This document shows positions 33,301 to 39,300 of a DNA stretch of 64,000 nucleotides, in pieces; position 1 is the first letter of the stretch; the number at the start of each line of letters is the position of its first letter. This DNA comes from Branchiostoma lanceolatum (lineage: Eukaryota; Chordata; Leptocardii; Amphioxiformes; Branchiostomatidae). A program made the translations under genes and the position numbers. The stretch covers positions 14,620,964 to 14,684,963 of the forward strand of contig NC_089729.1 in the NCBI RefSeq assembly GCF_035083965.1, written 5' to 3'. The notes beneath the pieces were generated by a model. That model worked only from the letters and a program-made list of their open reading frames with translations, ran no database searches and was not told where the DNA came from.

Positions 33301-36300
33301 AAAAATGGATGGTCTGTAAGTTTTCTCTGCCTGTTTAACGCTGTGCAAGCATGTGTTTATACTGAGGTCTTTGATGAAGAATTGTGCTAGGGTTACCCAT
33401 TATCGTCCACTTCAATCTTTTTTCTTTCTAGCACTATACATGAAGAACATTGACCTGAAAAAAATGCACAGTAACTGTCCAAAGTAATCTGCAAACAAAT
33501 GATAGTAATCTCACTATGTTTGTCCCTCCGCTTGCTTGACGTGATGGAAGAAAAAAATGTTGTGCTGTGAATTCTCACCGACATGAGCGGCATGTGACGT
33601 TCACGTTATGAACGCATGGCCATGATGTTTTGACGTTCAAAAATGTACAATTGGTGCGGGGTCGCTAGGTTGTATCAAACCTTCCGTTAAACTAGGAAGA
33701 GTTTTAAGCCATGGATAGTTTGAATATCAAAGAAAGGTTTAATGTTGGCTACTTTTAACAGATACTAGCTATCGTGTAAGTTATAAAAACATGATGAAGT
33801 AAGAGGTGTGGAATTGCGTATGAAATACGTCTCGCATTATTTTGCATGAGACAAGAAATTCACAAAAGCTTAAAGTATTTCAATGATATAAGATTTCTTG
33901 TGTTTTCCTTAATCAGGAATGCAGACAGATTGATTCAGGAGGTTTACCCCGTACTGGACACCCCAGCTAAGGAGAAACTGTGGGGTTACATCATCCGACT
34001 ACTGCCTACTGAAGAACAGCATGTCTTCAGCAGTAAGGTTCTCACCGTCAGGACTAGTCAAATACCTGGTAAGAATTTCAAATCATGAAGTTGTTTGCAT
34101 TTTTTGGGAAGCGTTTATTCTTGTCTTCTGTAACATATTTTCTTTGTAATATTTCTTATTGTCATGTTAAGAAATAAGCATTTGAACAGTATGTCAGGAT
34201 ATTGGAAAGCTTTTATAGCAGCATATCTCAGCTTTCAGCACCAGGGAGAGCGCCTTTGACAGAAAGATGTAGAGGTTAAAAAAGCTATCACCTCCTTGTT
34301 TTTATCACTTTTAACTGCTTTTATAGTTTTTTTTAGTTAACCTTCTCCCTGCTGACTAACTCTGTAACCAACAGGGAATCGGGTACCAAACGGCTACTTC
34401 AGGGTGCTAAATGTTAAGTAGTGTTTTCCAAGTGAAATTAAAGGCATCATTTTGTCACTCTAGATAAACACGATACAAACAGAGATGAAAATGGGTACTC
34501 TGATCAGGCCGACGATGTTTCGCACACCAGCGAAGCCATTCACTTCAGCACCACGGACGATGACTCATTTTCGCACAGTGAGCACTTTTGTCTTATTTCT
34601 TTTCTGATTTTGACCCCCCCAGCTCTATTCTTTAAGAGAGCATATTCATGTGTGAAAACATGCATTTGTTTTCTTCTTATCCATTAAAACTATGATATCC
34701 TTTATTTGGAAACACCTTGGAAGCTTCTTTTTTTACATCTTTTACTAATTCTTCATCTTGTAACCCCTGTTTAATTTGACAATGACTCATGTATCCTATA
34801 TGTTATTATTGACTGTATTGGTACTGATGACATTGTAGAACATTAGACAGCTATACAAGTCATTACTATTCACTATGTAAATACTATGCATTACTTATTT
34901 AGGAAGTAGCCTTTGACTATGGAAGCTAGTATATATCATTTTCACATCTACTGAACTACTCTTGTCTTCGACTAGTGTGTAAAACAGGGATAGCAATGAG
35001 AAGAAATAGATTAGACCTTCTCTGATATTCTTTTTGTCCTTTAATACCATTCTTTAGTTGAAGAAGCTGCTGATCTATTGGTCAACAAGTCACCTGATCT
35101 TCCTATTGAAAGATCAGAAGGAGATGGCACATCTATGGTAGGTAGTGCTGCGTACCTAAAGGTAACATCAGGTACAGGTACCGGTACAGAGGTTTAGGTA
35201 CAGGTCCGGACCTATACCTTTCCCTAAACAATTTTACAAATTAACATGTGTTCTTCCGAACTTCTTCAATAATGACAGAAACATTAATAATCTGTTTACA
35301 ACTTGTCAGTATCTTTATTCAAAGATCATAACTAGGTTTCTACCGCCAAACTCCCTTGGCCTTGCTATCAAAACTCCCAGCCCTCCTGAATGATCTGTCG
35401 CATGTAAGTAACGCTGTTCCAATGTGTCACTGGTCATGTTTGGTGTTGCATGAGGCTATGAGGTTAGGAGATAAGTCACAAAATAAGCAAAGACTTGGTG
35501 TAGATTTATATTGATACAGTACCGGTACTTCATGATCCGGTATTTTGGACGACCTGTACCTAATCGATTTTTATGGTACAGTACTGGTACACAGTACCGG
35601 TACGCAGCACTAATGGTAGGTACTGAATAATCATATTCTGTGTACTAAGTCAAGATATTCCTGACACGAAGCCTGTAGAGTCAAAACTCCAGAAGAGTGG
35701 GGAAGTAAAAACAGGAAATCAACATATACTACAGCATTGAGTCTGAAGTGTGCCCCCCTCCCAAACTCAATGCTGTATTTTGTACCTGTAGCATAGTTAA
35801 ATGTTTATATTTGACCACTCCTCTATTTCTTATCCAGTTCACATATTCATCCTATTACCAAATACTATTTTTACCTATCTTCTTGGTCAGAAGTAAGAAA
35901 ATACATTTTGTGGAAAGTCGAATTGCCAGAATTACTATACTAACTACATTTGAGGAAAAAAGTGGCCTAATTATTTTGTTTTTGTTTTAAACACGGATTA
36001 TTGATAATGTGATTCATTTTTTTATATCCAGGAGGGCTCGCCCGCCCACAAAGGGTTGAAGCATGGAGCAGTCCATAGTGACAAGGCACACTCAGTTGAT
36101 CAGGATGGACCAAACCAATCCCTATCTAGGGGTGTTGAAGCGATAGACATGAACCAACAGGAAAGGAGACCAAACCACTTTGTGGAGAGGGATGAACAGG
36201 GTACTGAATACAGGCCACCGTACGAAACGGACAAATATGGAAGTGGACAAAACCAACATCCAAATAGGGGTAATGAGAATTATGATAATGTGTTTGTCGG

Positions 36301-39300
36301 TGGAAATGGAGCAGACCACTACAGAGATAGGGGTGGTTATGAGGAATACAGCAACAGGACTGTGGATGGACCGGACCAATATCAAAACAGGGAGGAACAC
36401 CGTGAATATAGGGAGAGGGAAGAACCAAGTCAGTATTACGAAAATGGAGTTCATGAGTTACAGAGAGGTGGAAGCCTCAGAAGTCCACCAGGACCAAACC
36501 ATTCTCACAGAAGGGTGGCTTCGCTGGATTTTGGATACGAGCGCAGAGACAGACCAAATCATTATGATGACGGGGAGAGGCAGGATCATGTTGGCTACAG
36601 GCATCCTAACGGACTAGACTATTATGATGATAGGGGTGGGCAGGACAACCATAGGCACAGGCAATATGATGGGCCAGACCACTATCAAGACAGGGGTGGA
36701 CAAGTGGACTATAGGTACTCTAATGGACCAGACCACTATCAAAGTAGGGGTAATGACTATGATGATAGATATATCCAGCCTGAAAGGCAAGAGTATTATC
36801 AGGACAGGCATGAGCAATATGACCCCCCGTATGGGCAACCAAATGGACCGGTCTACCAGGACGATAGTGGCTATCAAGATGACTATAGTCAACACAATGG
36901 AACAGACTACTATGAAAGCAGGGGTGATCAGGACACAAGGTACAGGCAGTACAATGGGGCGGACCAATATTCCAACAGGGGGGATGAAGATGACTACAGG
37001 TACAGAAGTCAAGGGGGAGCAAACCATTATGACAATAGGGGTAATCAGGACTACTATGACGACAGACAGCCAAGAGGGACGGACTACTATCAAGAGAGGG
37101 GTGGTCAGGATCACTATGACTACAGGGGTCAAGGAGAATATGGCTATGGTAAGTGTCATTTATTATATGCGTCATTGCACCTGATGCAATTGTTGTGCAA
37201 TAAACTTGACTTGAAATGAAAATACATTTCACACAATTTGTGAGAAAGATTCCATTTCTTAGTCAGTAGCATTTGATACATGGTTTCCATGCTGTTTTTC
37301 AAGATGCCACAAACTACTGTACAATGTAGTAATGAAACAATTAACACTTGCCTAAAGTTTTGATTATGAAATGTTTTATCACGCCATTTTTTAGAACTTA
37401 CATATCTACACTGGGTTATCACTGCAGAGAAAGATTTTAAGTGTAATCCCTGTCTTATTTTCTGTTTTTCCAGACAATGATGATTACCCAGGGGACATCC
37501 CTCCCCCACCCCCAGGCCCTGCCCCACAGTTCGCCAGAGAGCCGCAGCAGCTCTACCCCCCAGAGGAGATGACAGCCGAGGCCATGATGAGCCGCCTGGC
37601 CCTCGCTGGGTCTGATCTCAACCAGGCAGAGGACCACAACCAGGGTATCACACCAGGGTACCAGCAGGGTGTCACACCAGTGTACCAGCAGGGTGTCACA
37701 ACAGGGTACCCGCAAGATATCACAACAGGGTACCAGCAGGGTGTCACACCAGGGTACCAGCAAGGTATCACACCAGGGTACCAGCAGGGTATCACACCAG
37801 GGTACCAGCAGGGTGGCACACCAGAGTACCAGCAAGGTATCACATCAGGGTACCAGCAGGGTGTCCCACAAGCATACCAACAGGGTATCCCACCAGGGTA
37901 CCAGCAGGGCGTCACACCAGGGTACCAAGGAGAAGTACCAGTTCACCAAAATGTAACAGATCCGGGTATTTCCCACAGGCCACCTGTACATAGACCAACG
38001 GAAAGTGTTAGCTCATCAGAGGTGGAATATGATACCATGCTGGGGGTGTCCTCGTCATCTATTCCGTTGCCTCCCCCTCCGCCCCCCTCCCCACTAGACT
38101 TGAATGCGAGCACTTCAAGTATTCCCATGCCTCCTCCCCTTCCACCTGGGAAAGCTAAAGGTCCGAAGATAAACATGAATGTGAAGAGGATGAACTGGGA
38201 GAAACTGGAGGGAGAGAAGGTCAAGAACACCATCTGGGGACAGGTGAGTGAACTGCAGCTTAAACACTCACACATTTCACAAAGTCTATTGCTCTTCTCT
38301 TTCTGTAGGTCTGCAACCATATGTAAACTTTGTGAAAAAACTTTCTTTCAGATCGGAGGGGATGAATACCTGCAGGAAGTGGTTAAAGTGATGGAACTGG
38401 AGCATCGCTTCAGCATGAAGACTAAGGGTAAGGGATCATTCCTGTCTTGTCATTCTAATGAACAATCAGTATCACCTCCCAATCAGGGGAGATTTGACAT
38501 TGGCATGGGTTGCTATCCATGTTATATCTAGAAGCGTTGTTTTCAGGATTTTGATTGGTGCCTATCTGCTGTATAAGACTAGTATACATGTAAGAGCATG
38601 ATGATTTTTATTCAAATTTGCTTTTATTATAAAATTGTCTGTTATACCTTACATTCAGGGTACTTAATTTTTTCCCTTACTTTTTTCAGTCGTGACAATT
38701 ATGTTCTAATCAAAGATCATGATTTTGCTAATTTTGTTGATAATTGATTATCATTATGGTGATTTCTGTTAATTCTGAATTTAATTCCTTATCAAATGAA
38801 TCCAATCACAGATAATTCAGATGAAGAAGATGACTTAGATGGTAAGCTATAGGGATACAGCCAATCATTCTTTGAATCTTTCCCTTAAAATCCTATCGTT
38901 TTGCCATCATTACTAACATCTCATATTCTTGTATCCCCATAAAATCTTGTTGCAAGTTCTCATCAACTTGGGTGTGAATGAATACTAACCATTTTAACAT
39001 TTAGCTCTTCAAACACTATGTGTATGCATATAGTTCCATATTCTACCAGCATGAATTGTTTCCTACTTAACATGATGTTCTTTCTTTGGTTTTGTAGTAA
39101 AGTTGTGTGATTCATATTTGCCAAGTCCATTTTGTCTTATACCTGTATCATTACTTCGTTTCAAAAGTGAGCTGAGTTTGGTTAGTGTTGTATAATTCAA
39201 CTTTAATTTTAACTATTTTCAATCAGTATACTTGTTTTTCTTGAATCAGAAACAACTAGTTGACACTGCAGGAATGTAAATGTTGCAATCCAATTCTTTG

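Follow-up and report, generated by a model that had tools for sequence, protein, structure and literature searches.

Three described systems come closest to the subject of this paper, a repeat-encoding exon in a delphilin-type formin gene of the amphioxus Branchiostoma lanceolatum, which lies in a 64,000-nucleotide stretch of contig NC_089729.1 (positions 14,620,964 to 14,684,963 of the forward strand; hereafter the window, in whose own numbering all coordinates are given). The first is Fus1 of fission yeast, a formin that is condensed by the disordered region linking its N-terminal domain to FH1-FH2; the low-complexity domain of FUS can take the place of that region (PMC9671092). The second is TAF15 and its repeats; DRGG and the TAF15 motif YGGDRGG are among the motifs enriched in phase-separating proteins (PMC12818744). 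The third is the GRID2IP, or delphilin, subtype of formins itself, whose domain order is PDZ-PDZ-HN-PDZ-HN-FH1-FH2, HN being the harmonin-homology domain (PMC5628938, PMC5047451), and whose loss has been inferred in placozoans, ctenophores, platyhelminths and the ecdysozoan ancestor (PMC5047451). A search of the openly licensed literature returned no amphioxus or lancelet paper with GRID2IP and, judged by title, nothing relevant on tandem repeats together with FH1; the one paper that it gave for amphioxus, formin and FH2 deals with cardiac hypertrophy. This is a statement about that literature and not a claim of absence from print.

The repeat exon of the amphioxus gene encodes a real, degenerate repeat domain that is very probably translated. 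What might such a domain do? By analogy with yeast Fus1, we tentatively favor a disordered spacer next to FH1 that would associate with itself and concentrate the formin, a reading to which we give somewhat less than even weight and which we set against its alternatives as the evidence that bears on each is described.

A very probably translated repeat in a single exon

The repeat exon, 1117 nt at 36032 to 37148 on the + strand, holds 372 codons and one further base; its phase is 0 at the acceptor and 1 at the donor. A preliminary description of this DNA had proposed a single exon at these positions coding for 372 residues, and that proposal holds: the splice sites are good and the frame is free of stops throughout. 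The acceptor (TATATCCAG/GAG, with the slash at the exon border) scores 3.0, a value reached by 43 of the 3603 AGs on the + strand of the window, and the donor (TATG/GTAAGT) scores 4.6, reached by 12 of the 3940 GTs on that strand, both scores being taken from a consensus matrix. We trained a small gene finder on ten coding stretches elsewhere in the window, leaving the repeat exon out, and it placed the exon in its best model at both of the intron penalties used (coding score +29.7), as did an earlier, stricter run; the automatic gene model missed or misplaced several weaker exons upstream. With the acceptor forbidden, the gene finder did not skip the exon and switched to an acceptor at 36054, 22 bases inside it. 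A hidden intron within the exon is ruled out, the best internal donor and acceptor scoring 1.2 and 1.4, against 4.6 and 3.0 at the true ends.

These splicing data bear on the idea that the exon is mainly a switch, its inclusion giving the full formin and its skipping a truncated scaffold that lacks FH2. An internal exon of 1117 nt is long; this one is 63.5% purine, and its length is not a multiple of 3. The exon upstream, which we placed by hand at 35058..35137 on the + strand, codes for a protein end GDGTSM before the donor GTAGGT and finishes in phase 0, as does the version that the automatic model puts at 35064-35161; joining the hand-placed exon to the exon after the repeat shifts the frame and brings in a stop 32 codons on from the junction, ahead of FH2. 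Because skipping shifts the frame, a full-length formin needs the repeat exon, unless another combination of exons restores the frame. Regulated skipping nonetheless has to contend with strong splice sites, with internal sites so much weaker than the true ends that no partial-intron switch is evident (although the acceptor at 36054 could substitute were the main one to fail), and with a codon-position constraint, described below, that points to function at the level of the protein; we regard it as very unlikely that switching is the exon's main role.

Residues 26-372 of the exon (36107..37147, + strand) form 17 degenerate units of 18-26 residues, with a mean of 20.4, in a manual segmentation that stands beside self-identity and DNA copies as the basis for calling the repeat; residues 1-25 lie outside it. 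The estimate first made was of about 20 degenerate units of 17-20 residues, from which our count differs in the number and size of the units. Self-identity at a lag of 20 residues is 0.205, as compared with 0.087 in shuffled sequences, and the best of lags 1-79 was that high in 0 of 1000 shuffles. The 5' units are the more decayed, with a leave-one-out similarity of 0.21-0.29 for units 1-8 and of 0.26-0.41 for units 9-17. At the level of DNA, the units differ on average at 46% of bases (first 54 bases, 14 of the 17 units, ungapped) and Tandem Repeats Finder called no array at 36032-37148, which together rule out a recent DNA satellite. With the exon masked, neither tblastn (E 1) nor nhmmer (E 10) found other copies of the unit in the window. 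The protein of the exon has no match in Pfam, NCBIfam, PHROGs or the PDB sequences up to E 10, which rules out membership of a known family in these collections; three stretches in viral contigs fit a pattern, and none was confirmed as a relative.

Is the repeat kept as protein? An open frame by itself is weak evidence, because the other frames and the minus strand at the exon hold competing open reading frames of 111-188 residues; codon-position bias and in-frame spacing of the copies are stronger evidence of coding than openness is. In each of the five families of DNA copies reported, which were found without regard to frame, the distances between copies are multiples of 3. Codon-position variability was compared in four of these families (the fifth, D5, was left out), which overlap and are not independent. 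In the two largest, the values for codon positions 1, 2 and 3 are 0.397, 0.242 and 0.546 (D1, p 0.0007) and 0.376, 0.250 and 0.517 (D2, p 0.002), and position 3 is again the most variable in D4 (p 0.008) and, more weakly, in D3 (p 0.074). Read in the exon frame, the proportions of synonymous and nonsynonymous differences (pS/pN) are 0.49/0.354 for D1 and 0.466/0.36 for D2, a contrast that is absent or reversed in the other two forward frames. Neutral decay from a consensus of 14 units, carried as far as the distance observed, would be expected to leave about 9 stops per 14 x 18 codons (units 2, 6 and 12 of the 17, whose cores align only with gaps, are omitted here and from the core and column comparisons below). 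Simulations of such decay gave 1, 0 and 0 stop-free runs per 5000 at three transition weights, figures that overstate independence in that the simulation used a star tree and a consensus drawn from the same data. The codon-position test and the simulation rule out a chance open frame and, given that the copies keep to distances divisible by 3 and that variability peaks at codon position 3, the exon appears to be maintained as protein.

Composition and predicted disorder

The 372 residues include 48 Asp, 46 Gly, 46 Tyr, 42 Arg, 34 Gln, 27 Glu, 25 Asn and 22 His, with 4 Lys and neither Cys nor Trp; relative to background frequencies, Tyr is present at 4.2 times and Lys at 0.18 times the usual level. 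Ala, Val, Leu, Ile and Met together account for 29 residues (7.8%), or 11.9% of residues 1-160 and 4.7% of residues 161-372, such that the phrase 'almost free of aliphatic residues', which had been applied to the whole segment, suits its 3' part and not residues 1-160. The segment carries a net charge of -0.078 per residue, and 297 of 300 shuffles mix the charges less evenly than it does.

The segment is predicted to be disordered. It falls far on the disordered side of a charge-hydropathy comparison, and AlphaFold2, run on the single sequence, returned a mean predicted local distance difference test (pLDDT) score of 44.4, with 309 of the 372 residues below 50 and with neither a four-residue helix nor a three-residue strand; low scores are partly expected of a run made without an alignment. 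Prion-like domains are rich in Asn, Gln, Ser, Gly and Tyr and poor in charge. Judged by composition against that definition, the exon falls outside the class, with 15.9% Asn plus Gln and 32.5% charged residues. The preliminary description, which had called the composition prion-like, was therefore imprecise: the charge content and an Arg:Lys ratio of 42:4 do not belong to the charge-poor type. The repeat resembles more nearly the charged DRGG/RGG class of TAF15 type, a likeness of composition and not of descent. RGG occurs 5 times against 0.6 expected (1 of 2000 shuffles that high), RG 13 times against 5.2 (2 of 2000) and DRGG 3 times against 0.08.

Could the segment then link the formin to messenger RNA as an RNA-binding element of RGG-like type? 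The excess of RGG and RG over shuffles would suit such a role, as would the resemblance to the TAF15 repeat motif (PMC12818744). The net negative charge is unfavorable to RNA binding, however, and the repeat protein has no match to any family in Pfam, NCBIfam or PHROGs; we consider an RNA-binding function the most improbable of the readings discussed here.

The host gene and the neighborhood of FH1

The identification of the gene as a delphilin/GRID2IP-type formin, made already in the first description, is supported by its domain order, with the second harmonin-homology domain supported weakly. Several of the domain searches were run on typed joins, in which exon pieces meet at borders that are in part assumptions, and all features of the gene lie on the + strand. 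The N-terminal exon at 24340..24933 (bounds from the gene model; open frame 24292-24939) encodes two PDZ domains (Pfam PDZ, E 9e-21, 2 stretches). The exon at 25845..25999 contributes, with its neighbors, the first harmonin-homology domain (Pfam USH1C_N, 28.5 bits against a cut-off of 27, typed join), for which the best PDB match is harmonin (E 5.2e-4). A third PDZ domain is split across exons at 30150..31646 (Pfam PDZ, 48.6 bits, typed join, splice sites partly assumed). A probable second harmonin-homology domain follows at 32976..34068, in exons 32976-33046 and 33917-34068; it reaches 17.8 bits with USH1C_N, under the cut-off of 27, and matches whirlin at E 1.5, and shorter versions of the region have no Pfam match. 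FH2 extends over several exons at 38155..45356, the end being that of the automatic model (Pfam FH2, E 4.5e-62, 210.8 bits, typed join), and its best matches among solved structures are DAAM1 and DIAPH1.

Downstream of the repeat exon, a further exon at 37474..38243 in the gene model (the earlier run extends it to 38427) carries the FH1 proline runs, an 8-residue array and the start of FH2. The first polyproline run, at 37500..37526, begins nine residues past the repeat exon, and further FH1 polyproline runs lie at 38070..38149. Among these runs, a 24-bp x 12 array at 37641..37927 codes for QQG(V/I)TPGY; it contains Tyr, shows no codon-position bias and is apparently young. Because FH1 is defined as the proline pairs and everything between them (PMC5047451), the 12 x 8-residue array lies inside FH1. 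The repeat exon had been placed between the second harmonin-N-like domain and FH1; it does lie upstream of FH1, which it directly abuts, and the domain on its other side is the weak one. Separated from the first proline run by nine residues, the repeat stands between the modules that likely tether the protein to membrane and the module that assembles actin.

Other elements in or near the gene include a 22-bp x 12 tandem array at 39622-39887 on the + strand, which the gene model places between exons of FH2, and two open frames on the + strand, 31106-31360 and 45337-45789, which have no Pfam match above the cut-off and whose Cys/His patterns are reminiscent of the end of the reverse transcriptases of long interspersed nuclear elements. 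Elsewhere in the window, a 414-residue open frame at 52682-53923 (+) has F-box-like and leucine-rich repeat matches and resembles FBXL16; a tRNA-Met gene with anticodon CAT lies at 58262-58334 (-); a series of related short open frames at 16505-17756, which takes in a 177-bp x 1.8 repeat (17313-17633), forms a repeat family; and a TCCA microsatellite of 38.8 copies lies at 2333-2487.

A possible role and its alternatives

How might the repeat work in its host? We picture a disordered repeat of about 350 residues directly before FH1, in which Tyr and Arg would make contacts and Asp, Gly, Gln, Asn and His would space them. The N-terminal PDZ and harmonin-homology domains would serve as a tether to membrane partners. 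Numerous Tyr-Arg contacts would give the repeat a weak self-association, which would gather the FH1-FH2 nucleator into clusters, and the repeat would also hold the nucleator away from the tether; phosphorylation of Tyr could loosen the clusters. Self-association, clustering and control by phosphorylation are features that we infer. A more ambitious form of this proposal, which we think doubtful, is that tyrosine kinases control a TAF15-like Y/D/R/G repeat which, within the synaptic-type scaffold delphilin, condenses the actin nucleator where PDZ domains anchor it at the membrane; the repeat would then be an animal counterpart, of separate origin, of the condensing region of Fus1.

A number of observations weigh against self-association. 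At codon positions 1-2, columns whose consensus is Gly, Tyr or Arg show no significant excess of conservation over the remaining columns (0.381 vs 0.455, p 0.21), and selection on the identity of the stickers is therefore not demonstrated. The exon has 75 acidic residues against 46 basic ones (Arg plus Lys), an imbalance that could hold chains apart, and plain RGG is not enriched in phase-separating proteins, being equally common in proteins without phase separation (PMC12818744). Nor does the exon frame stand out much in the 27-nt core of 14 units: its pS/pN of 0.406/0.327 is close to the 0.385/0.326 of the forward frame after it, and a frame of the reverse strand has a larger contrast (0.455/0.313).

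The same column result favors a passive spacer, one produced by unequal expansion and drift in which selection keeps nothing beyond openness, solubility and disorder, and which holds FH1-FH2 off the membrane tether. The strong divergence of the units in amino acids (pN of 0.35-0.36 in D1 and D2) would be expected of such a spacer, and the 24-bp array of the following exon, which is apparently young and lacks codon-position bias, suggests that the region is prone to expansion. A passive spacer has no need, however, for 46 Tyr or for so one-sided a preference for Arg over Lys, and the bias in Tyr and Lys persists over 17 diverged units. We take the passive spacer to be a serious possibility, albeit one that we do not expect to prevail, and we rank self-association slightly, and not further, above it because the Gly, Tyr and Arg columns are not significantly more conserved.

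The abundance of Tyr also raises the question of phosphorylation in its own right. In assemblies of nephrin-Nck type, phosphotyrosine recruits adaptors, and the repeat might likewise be a platform on which Tyr in acidic context is phosphorylated and brings SH2-SH3 adaptors to the formin. Beyond the 46 Tyr of the exon, an acidic residue is followed by Tyr one or two positions on in 27 cases, against 17.4 expected (6 of 2000 shuffles that high), and YxN is mildly enriched (7 vs 3.1, 49 of 2000 shuffles); these enrichments are compatible with tyrosine phosphorylation. Seven YxN motifs over 17 units are not a regular component of the unit, though, and Yxx[LIVMP] is at the level of chance (7 vs 5.2, 494 of 2000 shuffles). 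A platform of this kind seems to us improbable as the chief function of the repeat, and we continue to favor, with the reserve expressed above, the self-associating spacer.

Comparison with known systems

Measured against GRID2IP/delphilin formins, the amphioxus gene has the order PDZ-PDZ-HN-PDZ-HN-FH1-FH2, the second HN being weak here, and differs in its 17-unit Y/D/R/G/Q repeat before FH1 and in the 8-residue array among the proline runs, neither of which is mentioned in the portions of the delphilin papers cited here (PMC5628938, PMC5047451). With the YGGDRGG repeats of TAF15 (PMC12818744), it shares a repeated DRGG or RG accompanied by Tyr and Asp, a likeness in the description of motifs and not one of sequence alignment or homology; the unit here is about 20 residues long and rich in Gln, Asn and His, and the host is an actin nucleator instead of an RNA-binding protein. 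Were the repeat to cluster the formin, it would offer a natural test of FUS/TAF15-type sticker chemistry outside RNA-binding proteins.

Fus1 of fission yeast (PMC9671092) is likewise a formin whose N-terminal regulatory part and FH1-FH2 are separated by disordered sequence. Its N terminus is of GBD/FH3 type, in contrast to the PDZ and harmonin-homology domains here, no Y/D/R/G repeat is mentioned for it in the portions cited, and its condensation was shown by experiment, whereas the amphioxus repeat is known from its sequence. If the amphioxus repeat does cluster its formin, it would support, in an animal PDZ scaffold, the suggestion made for Fus1 that condensation by disordered regions may be a general organizer of actin networks (PMC9671092).

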